From Corynebacterium sp. NML98-0116 (GTDB taxonomy: Bacteria > Actinomycetota > Actinomycetes > Mycobacteriales > Mycobacteriaceae), in assembly GCF_001767255.1 (NCBI RefSeq), contig NZ_CP017639.1, forward strand, positions 828,875 to 892,874: a DNA stretch of 64,000 bases, in the 5' to 3' direction. The stretch's first letter is position 1, and every line of letters starts with the position of its first letter. Position numbers and translations under genes: made by a program. Shown here in pieces: positions 40,005-46,787 of this stretch. Under the pieces are notes generated by a model. That model was not told the origin of the DNA. It searched no databases and saw only the letters and a program-made list of their open reading frames with translations.

Positions 40005-40017
40005 TAAGATGAGCACC
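40005..40017 (+). promoter_or_regulatory. Predicted -10 box of hisA, leaderless
   Basis: TAAGAT (40005-40010) ends 7 bases before the ATG at 40018. It is the same hexamer and spacing as at dnaE1. Suggests an internal promoter in the his cluster. Confidence 0.5.
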
Positions 40018-40767
40018 ATGACTTTTACCTTGTTGCCTGCTGTTGATGTTGTTGAAGGTCAGGCCGTGCGGCTGGACCAGGGGGAAGCTGGGACGGAGAA
40101 GAGCTACGGGGATCCCCTGGAGGCTGCTCGTCGCTGGGAAGAGCAGGGGGCGCAGTGGCTGCACTTCGTGGATTTGGACGCCGCGTTTGGGCGTGGCTCG
40201 AACCATGAGTTGATGGCGGATATCACTGCGAAGCTGAGTATCGCTGTCGAGCTCACGGGTGGTATTCGTGACGACGCCACGTTGGAGCGGGCCCTTGCCA
40301 CCGGAGCGAAGCGCGTCAATATTGGTACCGCGGCGCTACAGGATCCGGAGTGGACCTGTAAGGCAATTGAGCGCTACGGCGACAAGATCGCGATTGATAT
40401 CGCGGTGCGTGAAACTGATGGTGAGTGGCGTACGAAGGGGAACGGCTGGACGTCCGACGGCGGTGATCTGTGGGAGGTTCTGGAGCGGTTCGATGCCGCT
40501 GGTTGCAGCCGTTTCGTGGTGACCGACGTGAGCAAGGACGGCACGCTAGCGGGGCCGAATGTTGCACTGTTGCGGGAGGTCGCCGCAGCGACGGACGCTC
40601 AGATTACTGCCTCGGGCGGAATCGCGACTCTCGACGACGTCGTAGAAGTGGCCCGGTATACCGATGAAGGGATCGACTCCGTCATTATCGGCAAGGCTCT
40701 CTACGAGAAGCGCTTCACGCTGAGTGAGGCGCTGGAGGCCGTCGCAAAGGTATCGAAGGGCGAGTAA
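40018..40767 (+). CDS. hisA: ProFAR isomerase (phosphoribosyl isomerase A)
   Basis: 249 aa TIM-barrel isomerase of histidine synthesis; in actinobacteria it often doubles as the TrpF activity (PriA). Visible: [18 protein letters not shown] at the N-terminus and [15 protein letters not shown] in the middle; the two half-barrel aspartates lie in these motifs. [11 protein letters not shown] and [11 protein letters not shown] bind phosphate. ATG 40018 is preferred over TTG 40000 and ATG 40009 because of the -10 position. Whether it also serves tryptophan synthesis cannot be decided here. Confidence 0.95.
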
Positions 40768-41667: not shown

Positions 41668-42441
41668 TTGTCTGTTGCAATCCGTGTGATTCCTTGCCTC
41701 GACGTGGACGACGGGCGGGTAGTAAAAGGCGTAAATTTTGAAAACCTGCGGGACGCTGGTGATCCCGTAGAGCTTGCTCAGCGGTACGGTCTGGAAGGCG
41801 CTGATGAGCTTACGTTTTTGGACGTAACCGCGTCGCGTGAGGGCCGTGGAACGATGCTTGAGGTCGTCCGTAAGACCGCAGAGCAGGTATTTATCCCGTT
41901 GACCGTTGGCGGAGGCGTTCGAAGCGTCGAAGACGTCTCTGAGTTGTTGCGTGCTGGCGCGGACAAAGCCAGTGTGAATACAGCGGCGATTCACCGGCCA
42001 GAGCTACTGCGTGAGCTCAGCGAGAAGTTTGGAGCGCAGTGCATTGTCTTGTCTGTCGACGCGCGTCGCGTGCCGAATGGTGGGCTTCCGCAGCCGTCTG
42101 GGTTTGAAGTGACCACGCACGGTGGTACGCGTTCGGCTGGTCTCGACGCGGTGGAGTGGGCTCGCACTGGACAAGACCTGGGTGTGGGGGAAATCTTGCT
42201 GAACTCGATGGACGGAGATGGGACCAAGGAAGGGTTCGATCTCGAGCTGTTGGAAAAGGTTCGAGCAGCGGTAAGCATCCCGGTGATTGCTTCCGGTGGC
42301 GCTGGCAAGGCTGCAGACTTCCCGCCAGCAGTAAAAGCGGGCGCAGACGCCGTACTTGCGGCGTCGATCTTCCACTTCGGCGAAGTGAGCATCGCAGAAG
42401 TAAAGGATGCGCTTCGGAATGAGGGCTTTGAGGTTCGCTGA
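41668..42441 (+). CDS. hisF: Imidazole glycerol phosphate synthase, cyclase subunit
   Basis: 257 aa TIM-barrel cyclase that works with HisH. N-terminal [19 protein letters not shown] holds the first catalytic Asp; the second lies in [20 protein letters not shown]. Length is normal. TTG start at 41668 with GGAGGG 8 bases upstream. The stop TGA shares one base with the hisI ATG. Confidence 0.96.
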
Positions 42442-42809
42442 TGACTGAACTACGACCAGAAGATGCCGTATTGGATCCTGCAATTGCTGCTCGGCTGAAG
42501 AAGAACGACCGCGGCCTGGTTCCCGCCGTGGTGCAGGCTGCTGACACCGGTGAGGTCCTCATGATGGCCTGGATGGATGAGCGGGCGCTGGCGTACACGC
42601 TGGAAACGCGACGTGGGACGTACTTCTCTCGCTCCCGTAACGAATACTGGGTAAAAGGGCTCACCAGTGGCGCTGTGCAAGAGGTCCGCGAGGTGCGCCT
42701 CGACTGCGACGGCGACACCTTGCTGGTGAAGGTGATCCAGACGGATGGTGCCTGCCATACGGGGGACCGTACGTGCTTCGATGCAGATCTGCTGTTGGAG
42801 GATATCTAG
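42441..42809 (+). CDS. hisI: Phosphoribosyl-AMP cyclohydrolase
   Basis: 122 aa zinc enzyme opening the purine ring of PR-AMP. Motifs: [22 protein letters not shown] split over two stretches ([13 protein letters not shown] and [10 protein letters not shown]), [12 protein letters not shown] with the Mg aspartates, and CHTGDRTCF with zinc cysteines. Monofunctional, without the HisE pyrophosphatase domain. One-base overlap with hisF, and it abuts the next gene. Confidence 0.96.
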
Positions 42810-43454
42810 GTGAATACGGCGAACCGCGTCGGCGCACTGCTGGTGGGCGTCGGTGGCGCGCTGGCGTGGGTGGGGTCCAGAATGGACTGGTTTACTGTCG
42901 AAGTTTTCGACGACCGCGCTGGAGCCAGTACCACTACCGTCGATGGTTCAATGTGGTCTACGGAGATCGCGGCAGTGGCGCTCATTCTGATCGTTGCAAT
43001 GATTGCGATATTCGCGCTGCGGCGAGTTGGGCGTCGAATAGTAGGTGTGGTGGCCGCACTAGGCGCCGTGGGCGCCGGCGTATCGGGCTTGCGAACCTTA
43101 TTAGCCGAGCCTGACTTGGAGCGTTTGCACACACTGCTGAGTGCCGGAAGCGGGGAGCAGGGAGGAGCAGCCAGTGACGGGGCGATTGCCGCGTGGGCGG
43201 AGATCACACAGGTGCAGCAGCATAGCGCTGGCATTTACCTGGTCATCTTGGGGGCGCTCCTGGGGCTTATTGGAGCGCTCACGGTTGTAATGCGGCCCGG
43301 TGTAGATTCCGCGAAGCTCAACAAGTATGAGACAGAGGCTGTGCGCCGTGAAAAGCTAGGTGAAGATCTCGAAGCTCGACCGGACTCTGGGCGCGTGATG
43401 TGGGACGCCTTGGACTCCGGAATTGACCCTACGGATGATGAGGCACGCCGATAA
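42810..43454 (+). CDS. TIGR02234-type membrane protein (Trp-associated)
   Basis: 214 aa. GTG start directly after the hisI stop. Four hydrophobic segments: about residues 6-25, 50-72, 78-95 and 143-162. It has an acidic/basic cytoplasmic tail ending DSGIDPTDDEARR. The pattern (MDWFTVEV after TM1, extracellular VDGSMWS) matches the actinobacterial trp-biosynthesis-associated membrane family TIGR02234, usually found between his or trp genes and trpC. Function unknown. The next gene is the TrpC-like one, 103 bases on. Confidence 0.8.
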   Translation: MNTANRVGALLVGVGGALAWVGSRMDWFTVEVFDDRAGASTTTVDGSMWSTEIAAVALILIVAMIAIFALRRVGRRIVGVVAALGAVGAGVSGLRTLLAEPDLERLHTLLSAGSGEQGGAASDGAIAAWAEITQVQQHSAGIYLVILGALLGLIGALTVVMRPGVDSAKLNKYETEAVRREKLGEDLEARPDSGRVMWDALDSGIDPTDDEARR

Positions 43455-43557
43455 ATATTCGGTATACCCCCGTGAAATTTCATGAACTAAATACGCGCGG
43501 GCTACGCTGGCAACTGCAACAATAGGCTTTCACCTCGGAGTCACGCGGGAGGCGAGT

Positions 43558-44352
43558 ATGTGTGCCACGGATGTACACAGCGATCTCTTCGCTGCAGTGC
43601 AGCGGCAGGTCGCGCGCCGTGAGTCCTTGGTGTCGTTCCAAGAGGTGAAGGATCGCTCGCGGGCAGCTGCATCTGCGCGCGACGCATACGCGGCCGTTGA
43701 CTCAGACGGATGCGCAATTATTGCCCAGGTACAGTACAACCAGCACGGCGTCCGGACTACGCAGCAACGGATTCACCGAGCGGCACTTGCCGCAGTGGAG
43801 CTTGAGATGCAGGGGGCGCAGCTGCTCGCGTGTTCGGGTGCGCTGTTTGGCCGTGAGGTCGCGAACATTGAGATGGACGCAGCGAGGGCAGCAGTGCATA
43901 TACCGGTGGTGAGCTTGGATACGATTGTTGATCCGTACCAAGTGCACGAGGCTCGCTGCTATGGAGCCGATGCGCTTGTGCTTCGTGCAGATATTCTTGA
44001 GCAGCCGCGACTGGAGGCGTTGCTAGATAGAGCGGAGACGCTTGGCATGTCGGCCTTCGTACAAGTCGGAGACGCTGAGGAGGCGGCACGTGCGCTTCGG
44101 GCGGGCGCATCGGTGCTGGCTGTTGTGCCACCGAAACGTCCATCGGGGGAGACTGATCACTTCGCGCTGGGTGAGCTTGTTGCGGGCCTTCCGAGCAAGA
44201 TCCGCGTGGTGATGATGGCGGATGTGTTGACTCCGCGTGATCTGTTTAACGTCGCCGCCGCAGGAGCAGACGCCATTTTGGCGAATGCCGAAGCGGCTAT
44301 TCCTTCTCTTGCCACCGCCGGGCGACACCCCGCGTGCGCTTCCCGCCGATAA
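43558..44352 (+). CDS. TrpC-like protein with replaced catalytic residues (probable pseudoenzyme)
   Basis: 264 aa with the length and barrel pattern of indole-3-glycerol-phosphate synthase: IPVVSLDTIVDPYQVHEARC, then GADALVL, and the ending AAAGADAILANAEA. The catalytic positions do not match. The EVK of strand 1 reads QVQ (Q57, Q59). The lysine of RKDF is L120. The EVH glutamate is Q169. The NNRDL loop reads VVPPKRP (P191/P192). The SES motif reads MAD (M220, A221). The frame is intact and ATG 43558 has GGGAGG upstream, so the gene is maintained. Loss of IGPS activity is expected; a binding or regulatory role is speculation. Homologues at this locus are annotated as IGPS in corynebacteria. 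Confidence 0.8.
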   Translation: MCATDVHSDLFAAVQRQVARRESLVSFQEVKDRSRAAASARDAYAAVDSDGCAIIAQVQYNQHGVRTTQQRIHRAALAAVELEMQGAQLLACSGALFGREVANIEMDAARAAVHIPVVSLDTIVDPYQVHEARCYGADALVLRADILEQPRLEALLDRAETLGMSAFVQVGDAEEAARALRAGASVLAVVPPKRPSGETDHFALGELVAGLPSKIRVVMMADVLTPRDLFNVAAAGADAILANAEAAIPSLATAGRHPACASRR

Positions 44353-44370
44353 TCAGGCACACTAGGGGGC

Positions 44371-45261
44371 GTGCAAACTACGATTCTGGCAAACATTCCC
44401 TCGCCACCACAGGGTGTGTGGCACATCGGCTGGTTCCCGGTGAGGGCGTACGCGCTGTGCATCATCACCGGCATTCTGCTTGCAATGTGGGTGGGCACCC
44501 GGCGCTATCGTACGCGTGGTGGTGATCCTGACGTGATTTGGGACGCGGCGATCGTCGCTATCCCAATGGGCATTGTTGGTGGTCGGCTCTACCATGTGCT
44601 GACGGACCACGAGAAGTATTTCGGCCCCGGGAAAGATCCACTGCAGGCGCTGAACATTACTGCGGGTGGTTTGGGCATCTGGGGCGCAGTCGCACTGGGC
44701 GCGGCGAGCGTGTGGTTGCTGCTGCGGTGGAAGAAGATTGCTGTTGGGCCTGTTGCGGATGCGCTGGCGCCAGGCATCGTGTTGGCCCAGGCTGTGGGAC
44801 GCCTTGGGAACTGGTTCAATCAGGAACTCTATGGTGCTGAAACGATGGTACCGTGGGCGTTGGATATCTACTACCGCGTTGACGAGCAAGGGGCGTTCGC
44901 TCCGCTGACAGGGCGTTCTACCGGTGAGGTCATCGCGAGCGTTCACCCGACGTTCCTCTACGAGTTGGTGTGGAATCTGCTTGTGTTTGCTTTCCTGCTT
45001 TGGGCAGATAAGCACTTCAGGCTCGGACACGGCAGGGTATTTTGGCTATACGTTGCTGGCTACACGATGGGCCGATTCGCAATCGAGTTGATGCGTACTG
45101 ACGCCGCAACACTAATTTTGGGGTTGCGTGTGAACACGTGGGTTTCAGGCCTGCTTTTTGTTGTTTCACTTGGGATTTTCTTCCTATTGCCACGTGGGAG
45201 AGAAGCCGAGAAAGAACTCGTTCACAACGATAATGATGATACGAATCGTGATTCGGGGTAG
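44371..45261 (+). CDS. lgt: Prolipoprotein diacylglyceryl transferase
   Basis: 296 aa integral membrane enzyme that adds diacylglycerol to the lipobox cysteine before LspA cleaves. About seven hydrophobic segments. Signature region around [13 protein letters not shown] and [24 protein letters not shown] and an acidic, Asn/Asp-rich C-terminus follow. GTG start at 44371; CACACT (44358-44363) ends 7 bases upstream, a near-match to the leaderless pattern seen elsewhere. Its substrates probably include the lipoproteins in this window. Confidence 0.95.
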
Positions 45262-45358
45262 GGTGGTATCCGAAGTGGAAGATAGGCCACACGATACGGC
45301 AGTGGAGAATTCACACACTATCTGGCCTTGAAACCACCGGTAATTGTTGAATCGCTAC

Positions 45359-45371
45359 TAGGTTGGATCTC
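45359..45371 (+). promoter_or_regulatory. Predicted -10 box of pyk, leaderless GTG
   Basis: TAGGTT (45359-45364) ends 7 bases before the GTG at 45372. No ribosome binding site. This favours the GTG over the TTG at 45363, which lies inside the box. Confidence 0.5.
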
Positions 45372-46787
45372 GTGGATAGAAGAACAAAGATCGTATGTAC
45401 GCTTGGCCCTGCTGTGGCCAGCAAAGAAGCAATCCTCGGACTTGTGCGCGACGGCATGGATGTCGCCCGCCTCAACTTCTCCCACGGCGACTATCCGGAC
45501 CACGAGCAGAACTACCGCTGGGTCCGCGAAGCCACCGATGAAACGGGACACGCAGTTGGCATCCTCGCCGACCTTCAGGGTCCGAAAATCCGTCTTGGGC
45601 GCTTTGAAGAAGGCGCCACCGTCTGGGAGACGGGCGAAACGGTCCGCATCACAGTCGATGACGTGCCAGGCACGCACGACCGAGTCTCGACGACTTACAA
45701 GAACCTCGCCAAGGACGCGAAGCCGGGCGACCGCCTGCTCGTCGACGACGGCAAGGTCGGTCTGGTCTGTGTCGAAGTCGACGGCAACGACGTTGTCTGC
45801 CGCGTGACCGAAGGTGGCCCTGTTTCCAACAACAAGGGTGTTTCCCTGCCGGGGATGGACATCTCCGTCCCGGCGTTGTCCGAGAAGGACAAGGCGGACC
45901 TGCGGTTCGCACTCAAGATGGGTGTCGACGTCGTCGCGCTGTCCTTCGTGCGCTCGCCGGCAGATGTTGACCTGGTTCATGAGATCATGGACGAAGTTGG
46001 CCGTCGTGTCCCAGTCATCGCGAAGCTGGAGAAGCCAGAAGCAGTCGACGCCCTGGAGTCAATCATCCTGGCATTCGACGCCGTGATGGTTGCCCGTGGC
46101 GACCTCGGCGTTGAGATTCCGCTTGAACTTGTTCCAGGTGTGCAGAAGCGCGTCATCCAGATCGCTCGTGAAAACGCGAAGCCGGTCATCGTCGCTACGC
46201 AGATGCTGGATTCGATGATTGATAACTCGCGTCCGACGCGTGCAGAGGCTTCCGACGTTGCGAACGCCGTGCTCGACGGTGCAGACGCCGTCATGCTCTC
46301 CGGTGAGACCTCCGTTGGCGTTGACCCGCACAACGTGGTCCGCACGATGAGCCGCATTGTCCGCTCCGCTGAGGCTATGGACAAGGTGCCGCCTCTGAAC
46401 CACATCCCGCGTACCCGCCGTGGTGTGATCTCCTACTCGGCGAACGATGTGGCAAACCGTCTGCACGCACGCGCAATCGTGGCGTTCACCGCGACCGGCG
46501 ACACCGCTCGACGCGTCGCGCGCCTGCGCCCAGACCTGCCGCTGCTCGTGTTTACTCCGAAGCAGGAGGTTCGCTCGCAGCTCGCACTGACCTGGGGCGT
46601 GGAGACCTTCCTGTGCCCTCCGGTGCACAGCACGGATGACATGATCGCCACCGTCGACAAGTACTTGCTGGCGATGGATGAGTACCAGGAGAATGACACC
46701 ATGGTGATGGTTGCAGGTACCCCTCCAGGAGTTGCAGGCTCGACCAACACGGTCCACGTCCACCAGCTGGGCGAGGAGGCTTACTGA
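45372..46787 (+). CDS. pyk: Pyruvate kinase
   Basis: 471 aa glycolytic enzyme (PEP + ADP to pyruvate + ATP). N-terminus DRRTKIVCTLGPA is typical. Also visible: RLNFSHGDYPDHEQ, LADLQGPKIRLG, AKLEKPEAVD (catalytic Lys), MVARGDLGVEIP and ATQMLDSMI. The C-terminal domain (about 350-471) is the allosteric part. Length normal. A rho-independent terminator follows about 44 bases after the stop. Confidence 0.97.
   Translation: MDRRTKIVCTLGPAVASKEAILGLVRDGMDVARLNFSHGDYPDHEQNYRWVREATDETGHAVGILADLQGPKIRLGRFEEGATVWETGETVRITVDDVPGTHDRVSTTYKNLAKDAKPGDRLLVDDGKVGLVCVEVDGNDVVCRVTEGGPVSNNKGVSLPGMDISVPALSEKDKADLRFALKMGVDVVALSFVRSPADVDLVHEIMDEVGRRVPVIAKLEKPEAVDALESIILAFDAVMVARGDLGVEIPLELVPGVQKRVIQIARENAKPVIVATQMLDSMIDNSRPTRAEASDVANAVLDGADAVMLSGETSVGVDPHNVVRTMSRIVRSAEAMDKVPPLNHIPRTRRGVISYSANDVANRLHARAIVAFTATGDTARRVARLRPDLPLLVFTPKQEVRSQLALTWGVETFLCPPVHSTDDMIATVDKYLLAMDEYQENDTMVMVAGTPPGVAGSTNTVHVHQLGEEAY

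Follow-up and report, generated by a model that had tools for sequence, protein, structure and literature searches.

What does a bacterium keep when it retains an intact gene for the barrel of indole-3-glycerol-phosphate synthase (IGPS, TrpC) in which none of the catalytic residues of that enzyme is left? The question is raised by an open reading frame with an ATG start in Corynebacterium sp. NML98-0116, located upstream of lgt in the 64,000-nucleotide stretch of DNA analyzed here (hereafter the window). An initial annotation, made from the letters of the window, proposed that the gene is a former trpC kept for another job after tryptophan synthesis moved to a different locus. Transfer of a trp operon into Corynebacterium has been described, together with the accompanying narrowing of PriA to subHisA, in the accessible portions of PMC5404923 and PMC4462073. 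However, full-text literature searches returned no title or abstract on a retained trpC copy, and within the literature found such a copy is named only in the accessible text of PMC6691914, as cg2293 of C. glutamicum.

We refer to the gene and its relatives as TrpC'. The explanation that we favor, with a probability of roughly 0.6, is a repurposed barrel that is not an IGPS, probably a binding or regulatory pseudoenzyme, which originated in two steps from a displaced trpC. The features on which the analysis draws are collected in Table 1.

Table 1. Features of the TrpC' locus in window coordinates
Feature	Position	Strand	Basis
hisA/priA, Thr before GGIR (subHisA-type marker; PMC4462073, accessible portion)	40009..40767	+	
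hisF-hisI, upstream context	41668..42809	+	hisI by Pfam; hisF from translation
TIGR02234/PF09534 'Trp-associated' membrane protein, upstream neighbor	42810..43454	+	profiles
GGGAGG, Shine-Dalgarno-like run, 5 nt 5' of the TrpC' ATG	43547..43552	+	sequence
TrpC' (IGPS fold, 264 aa, without IGPS catalytic residues)	43558..44352	+	ORF, profiles, model
C52 codon, TrpC' family mark	43711..43713	+	alignment
Codons 57-59 (Q-V-Q), replacing E51/K53 equivalents	43726..43734	+	alignment
L120 codon, K110 equivalent (Arg in 93/109 TrpC' copies)	43915..43917	+	alignment
D125 codon, TrpC' family mark	43930..43932	+	alignment
Q169 codon, E159 equivalent replaced	44062..44064	+	alignment
VVPPKRP (189-195) at the N180 loop site; V190 = N180 equivalent	44122..44142	+	alignment
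M220-A221-D222, replacing E210-S211-G212	44215..44223	+	alignment
lgt, begins 18 nt past the TrpC' stop	44371..45261	+	profiles

Results

An IGPS barrel without the IGPS catalytic residues

The window protein matches the Pfam IGPS profile with an E-value of 1.7e-20 (73.7 bits, cut-off 27) and M. tuberculosis TrpC with one of 6e-34. The expectation that a standard annotation would read TrpC is therefore half right: the Pfam cut-off is passed and cg2293 appears in print as a putative IGPS, but the protein lies under the cut-off of every NCBIfam TrpC model listed (best 146.9 versus 329 bits). An AlphaFold2 model based on 65 aligned sequences (pLDDT 93.0, pTM 0.91) predicts, like the profile, the (beta/alpha)8 fold and N-terminal extension of IGPS. 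Its best match among solved structures is M. tuberculosis TrpC (3qja; Z 32.8, rmsd 2.1, 239 residues aligned).

Alignment with catalytic TrpC placed all seven catalytic replacements named by the initial annotation exactly where it had put them (Q57, Q59, L120, Q169, V190, M220, and A221). In the numbering of S. solfataricus, used here for E51, K53, K110, E159, N180, and E210, this catalytic set is wholly absent and reads Q, Q, L, Q, V, M. Further changes relative to catalytic TrpC are S56 to Q62, F112 to T122, R182 to P192, and G212 to D222, and the equivalents of G233/S234 fall in an alignment gap. We take S56 (here Q62), G212 (here D222), and G233/S234 (here the gap) to be phosphate-binding positions of IGPS. 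Because the same residue pattern occurs in another assembly of the window species (G050, 99.6% protein identity to the window TrpC') and in a related species (G022, 89.8%), the changes are real and sequencing error is ruled out as their source.

The functional cost of such changes can be read from M. tuberculosis IGPS mutants, assayed in PMC10591298 with a numbering that nearly equals that of the window protein; the values below are those in the accessible text of that paper. Relative to wild type, kcat fell to 0.0050 in E57Q, 0.0022 in K59R, 0.00037 in K119R (with KM about unchanged, 5.1 versus 6.9 uM), and 0.00010 in E168Q, so that the mutants matching the changes seen here had lost 99.5-99.99% of turnover. 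Alanine at each of five positions, including K59A and E219A, left no detectable activity. By contrast, E219Q was harmless, with a 10.5-fold increase, and E219N stood at 0.47 of wild type. The window protein carries E57Q and E168Q exactly, plus K59Q, K119L, and E219M, and IGPS activity is therefore very unlikely, as judged from sequence. That it still makes indole-3-glycerol phosphate, with catalytic residues supplied from elsewhere in the chain, would agree with the predicted intact fold. We nevertheless find this scarcely credible: the two exact changes each nearly abolish activity and alanine at K59 or E219 abolishes it wholly in the mutants of PMC10591298, none of the sites carries its catalytic residue in the alignment, and the genome encodes an intact IGPS.

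An intact TrpCF in the same genome

That second enzyme, a TrpCF, is located at C1:4594-5334(-) of the window genome (G000; one contig, 2,365,449 bases), adjoined by trpD and trpA. Its IGPS score is 273 bits, versus 73 for the window gene, and it keeps all sites. The initial annotation had suggested looking for a second, intact trpC; one is thus present, and tryptophan synthesis now presumably runs from that operon. All 31 TrpCF proteins examined read EKSKFENRESGS at E51, K53, S56, K110, F112, E159, N180, R182, E210, S211, G233, and S234, where the window protein reads QQQLTQVPMA followed by a gap at the last two positions. The two kinds of copy have separate ancestries, as seven TrpCF sequences at the root of the tree stand apart from the lgt-type copies. 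In C. glutamicum, transposon hits in trpCF gave tryptophan auxotrophs (PMC1590026, accessible portion), which is in line with the absence of a backup, though TrpF is lost in these mutants too.

As a separate observation, the IGPS part of TrpCF lies in two frames at G022:C14:10382-11665, in the closest relative of the window species, and at G002:C43:43015-43754, through either real decay or assembly error; trpD of G022 likewise matches in two pieces.

The ancestral locus and the TrpC' family

The order of genes around TrpC' is hisH, hisA, impA, hisF, hisI, TIGR02234 membrane protein, TrpC', lgt, and pyk, with hisI, TIGR02234, IGPS, and lgt named by profile and the others by us from their translations. 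No other trp gene adjoins the window gene, in contrast to the ancestral TrpC setting. The gap between TrpC' and lgt has a median of 30 nt over 108 loci, and a promoter scan of 42400-45400 found none, with 1.1 expected.

An IGPS match was obtained in 151/151 Corynebacterium genomes, a sample drawn evenly from a larger group, from which 148 lgt-type copies were extracted, that of G008 being added later. Forty of these genomes have one IGPS, a TrpC that is intact at all sites in every case (40/40), and within the stretch examined their loci hold trpE in 40, TIGR02234 in 40, trpB in 39, trpA in 34, and lgt in 38. Another 109 genomes, namely 106 with two IGPS matches together with G008, G144, and G119 (53% complete), carry a TrpC' copy, none of which is intact (0/109). 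The remaining two (40 + 109 + 2 = 151) have no lgt-type copy: in G058, TIGR02234 is followed directly by lgt, and G131 is 82% complete. TIGR02234, TrpC', and lgt are present at each of the 108 TrpC' loci mapped (all but that of G008), while trpE, trpB, and trpA occur at none of them. Beyond the genus, trpB and trpA stand behind trpC in 18/18 loci that we selected across 17 of the family's other genera, with lgt in 16 of the 18 stretches. The view that the window gene was once the trpC of an ancestral trpE-trpC-trpB-trpA-lgt arrangement at this site is supported.

In the TrpC tree, the 109 TrpC' copies form one clade (SH-like support 0.996). E210 is lost in all of them, being replaced by Leu, Val, Met, Ile, Ala, or Arg, and the K110 position carries Arg in 93 copies and Lys in 5. 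Most other residues of the site are kept, E51 in 100, K53 in 95, E159 in 102, N180 in 96, and G212 in 105 of the 109. The loss of E210 alone is not decisive, because Ala occupies this position in L211, a single-copy TrpC from a different genus, and E219Q raises the activity of the M. tuberculosis enzyme. The family is also marked by two residues, Cys52 and Asp125, each found in 108/109 TrpC' copies versus 0/58 catalytic TrpC (40 from Corynebacterium and 18 from other genera). In the model of the window protein, C52 lies just before strand 53-57, with position 57 at its far end, and D125 just before helix 126-134. Setting aside 10 copies that are degenerate and 4 that are partly changed leaves 95 R110-type copies, in which E51, K53, E159, and G212 are invariant and N180 is present in 92; a structure model of one of these, L062, reached a pLDDT of 95.6. 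Among 23 named loci run of 80, all 17 from Corynebacterium have R110, C52, and D125, including C. glaucum, C. mucifaciens, C. minutissimum, C. lubricantis, and C. pelargi, and all 6 from other actinobacteria have the catalytic pattern.

Several copies vary in other ways. A small clade of three loci, L119, L120, and L126 (genomes G129, G064, and G063), keeps E51, E159, and N180 with K53 changed to Arg or Gln and S211 to Ala, a third kind of partial change. In G008, a 238-residue frame between TIGR02234 and lgt (L185:4056-4730) is a barely recognizable TrpC' on the longest branch of the family. Among 151 genomes from 31 genera of the taxonomic family, no genus other than Corynebacterium and g4 (G153, G184) has two IGPS matches, and one genome, G181, has no match in the same search. 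In g4 (L222, L223; genomes of about 2 Mb), the lgt-linked copy is likewise without trp neighbors; S211A is present in both copies and K53I in one, and C52 and D125 are absent. Judged from these sequences, g4 offers a parallel that ended differently.

TIGR02234/PF09534 itself occurs in 150/151 Corynebacterium genomes (the miss is again G131), including G144, in which TrpCF, trpA, and trpD were not found, and G058. Its 'tryptophan-associated' name misleads, since it is present with or without trp genes beside it. A tight partnership of this membrane protein with TrpC' was considered and is weakened by G058 and G008, which keep TIGR02234 while TrpC' is absent or eroded, as well as by BLAST searches, which found none beside the second IGPS copies of g4.

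Persistence without histidine or tryptophan genes

Four genomes that are at least 99% complete (G016, G038, G070, and G122) keep TrpC' with the pattern EKSRVENWLGA, and G078 (77% complete) keeps an R110-type copy, although neither HisB nor HisD was found in any of the five by searches that each missed 1/14 control genomes (B. subtilis). In G144, HisB and HisD were not found, nor were TrpCF, trpA, and trpD; TrpC' is kept as EKVRIENWVGG and a HisA-type gene is present. A histidine enzyme is ruled out by the R110-type copies that persist in genomes where searches recovered neither HisB nor HisD. Two further genomes, G002 and G049, have no HisB and are not counted against a histidine role, because HisD is still present. 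In the loci L040, L037, L041, and L045 of G016, G038, G070, and G122, which are near the window clade, the 1.5 kb preceding the locus contains no hisF-hisI, and histidine synthesis has apparently been lost in these species.

At the HisA marker residue (taken from PMC4462073, accessible portion), the window has the Thr typical of subHisA, as do 9 of the 11 other TrpCF-type genomes in which HisA was matched; G004 and G097 have Ser, which is also found in 15/15 one-IGPS genomes tested, and G144 has Ala. No HisA was found at E 1e-40 in G002, G016, and G084. The Thr of the window HisA is consistent with an acquired TrpF.

Total loss of the site on the window branch

The window gene has the features of the TrpC' family: it is lgt-linked, without trpE, trpB, or trpA, and it has C52 and D125 but no E210. 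Both the TrpC tree and a neighbor-gene tree place it inside the TrpC' clade. It does not have the majority site E51-K53-R110-E159-N180, reading Q, Q, L, Q, V instead. As most of the clade keeps this different conserved site, the total loss in the window is a second, local step. As for conservation across Corynebacterium, a check advised by the initial annotation, the gene is found in 109 genomes; the full residue loss of the window gene arose on one branch, and similar total losses took place in other parts of the genus.

The neighbor-gene tree (FastTree of hisF-hisI-TIGR02234-lgt-pyk, with gene stretches incomplete in many loci) nests G000, G050, and G022 among EKSRVENWLGA species (support 0.973; next node 0.878). 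It puts five C. glutamicum-like copies with the pattern AD..D..D elsewhere (support 1.0; wider node 0.985), though support at its deep nodes is low (0.23, 0.31). In the TrpC' tree, by contrast, the degenerate lineages are close together, which could mean fewer independent losses. We read this closeness as long-branch attraction, because the neighbor genes give another grouping and the substituted residues are not the same; the C. glutamicum-like clade has thus probably lost its site separately.

On the fixed neighbor topology, which favors lgt and TIGR02234 because both contributed to it, the stem branch of the window lineage is 1.756 for TrpC' (rank 5 of 215), compared with 0.758 for lgt (rank 18) and 0.967 for TIGR02234 (rank 14). 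After the stem, the distance between G000 and G022 is 0.135 for TrpC', 0.252 for lgt, and 0.234 for TIGR02234. For this pair, dN and dS are 0.06 and 1.20 (NG86) or 0.057 and 0.793 (YN00) for TrpC', and 0.05 and 0.86 (NG86) or 0.041 and 0.785 (YN00) for lgt; with dS near 1 and thus partly saturated, dN/dS is about 0.05-0.07 for TrpC', like lgt. A long stem, a small later distance, and a low dN/dS together point to a burst of change followed by constraint. Intact frames in G000, G050, and G022 and the low dN/dS rule out a decaying pseudogene, and the initial annotation's view that the gene is not in decay holds for this species.

The burst fell on the active site. Among 45 columns conserved in catalytic TrpC and the R110-type set, of which 5 were named by us as active-site columns, the window protein keeps 0/5 active-site and 32/40 other columns (Fisher p 0.0011). 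Applied to the window trio, the same test for excess active-site loss returns p values of 0.001-0.002; for the C. glutamicum-like clade they are 0.02-0.11, and neither G084 (0.17) nor G008 (0.25) reaches significance. Five degenerate representatives have C52 in 5/5 and D125 in 4/5 (not G008).

These numbers bear on two other explanations. The first is that the gene is a relic in the course of being lost, retained for no purpose other than to serve as a translated spacer driving translation of lgt. The 18 nt between the two genes in the window and the short gaps elsewhere would suit such a role, as would the absence of the gene in G058, its erosion in G008, and its frameshift in a fast-growing C. 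glutamicum strain. We consider it quite improbable, since a spacer needs no amino-acid constraint, yet the dN/dS is low and the protein retains 32 of 40 structural columns; moreover, G058 has lgt right after TIGR02234.

The second, which we regard as rather unlikely but less so, is that TrpC' is a new enzyme: the R110 form would catalyze a different reaction, with a sugar phosphate as ligand, and the window protein would be a further shifted enzyme whose pocket is polar through Q57, Q59, and Q169. The invariant residues of the 95 R110-type copies speak for it, and so do two pairs of genomes in which TrpC' is better conserved than lgt (identities of 78 versus 75% for G104-G009 and 81 versus 77% for G104-G130). 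Two other pairs point the opposite way (69 versus 77% for G088-G098 and 96 versus 98% for G087-G007). Furthermore, the window lineage kept none of the five active-site residues while the non-catalytic C52 and D125 stayed, no further metabolic neighbor was found at the locus with the known queries used, and the gene persists even in genomes in which histidine or tryptophan genes were not found.

In the C. glutamicum-like clade, TrpC' identity is 72-81% versus 84-86% for lgt, and constraint is therefore weaker there. We infer that cg2293 belongs to this degenerate clade, from its length of 261 aa, shared by 4/5 copies, and from the close match of three TrpCF of the clade to PDB 7etx (854-865 bits). 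It stands next to lgt, and by gene order cg2294 would be the TIGR02234 gene. In strain EVO5, evolved for 1,700 generations in glucose medium, cg2293, annotated as a putative IGPS of 261 aa, has a one-base deletion that leads to a stop at residue 55 (PMC6691914, accessible portion).

Discussion

Our results support a repurposed, probably non-catalytic barrel of two-step origin. Sequence comparison demonstrates the absence of the catalytic residues, a vertical remnant, a site rebuilt across the family, its local total loss, and present constraint. An ancestral actinobacterial trpC in the order trpE-TIGR02234-trpC-trpB-trpA-lgt was inherited vertically down to the window gene. Within Corynebacterium, one clade came to rely on a TrpCF operon, and the original site lost trpE, trpB, and trpA but not trpC. 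In the first step, evident from the sequences, the retained copy became the TrpC' family, losing E210, nearly always exchanging K110 for Arg, and fixing C52 and D125, with E51, K53, E159, N180, and the phosphate glycine G212 mostly retained. Such a protein should hardly be able to make indole-3-glycerol phosphate, but may bind a phosphorylated ligand such as CdRP. In the second step, likewise evident, the window branch lost the remaining catalytic and phosphate residues in a burst and has since evolved under purifying selection, with C52 and D125 kept. The job selected in the window lineage would accordingly be independent of catalysis, with the folded barrel binding a partner or a ligand, and a non-catalytic binding role is what we infer. 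Kept fold, lost catalytic residues, and purifying selection are signs of a pseudoenzyme, which may have a regulatory or scaffold role and is perhaps made together with lgt.

The suggestion that the gene is kept for another job is thus supported, but it missed the two-step history and the fact that the job is not needed everywhere, since G058 lacks the gene at the locus, cg2293 is frameshifted in EVO5, and similar total losses occur elsewhere. The frameshift and G058 mean that the TrpC' role is dispensable in places. A broader reading, which we offer tentatively and hold to be somewhat short of probable, is that a resident enzyme, displaced by an operon gained through horizontal transfer, gave rise at its old site to a new, widespread family, marked by C52 and D125 and serving neither tryptophan nor histidine synthesis, in which a rebuilt site was followed by at least two separate, purely non-catalytic, selected barrels.

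The locus amounts to a replicated natural experiment on the fate of an enzyme superseded by a better-placed copy: the displaced enzyme is retained in about 100 species, and its active sites are rebuilt, emptied, or deleted at different tips of one tree. It also exposes a widely mis-annotated Corynebacterium family, probably including the C. glutamicum gene, whose function is open to a gene-removal test.

Three known systems help to place TrpC'. M. tuberculosis TrpC (PDB 3qja/3t44), the closest solved structure, has the fold, length, and ancestral gene site in common with the window protein, in which the catalytic residues and phosphate loops are replaced or deleted. Corynebacterium TrpCF (PDB 7etx/7ety) has an IGPS domain of the same fold and presumably does the IGPS job now but, unlike TrpC', carries a TrpF domain. 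The fate of TrpC' pairs with the known fate of PriA after the same transfer: in subHisA, narrowed to HisA after the trp operon transfer (PMC4462073 and PMC5404923, accessible portions), the same cause changed a resident barrel. However, whereas subHisA retained one activity, TrpC', as far as its sequence tells, lost its own and fixed new residues.
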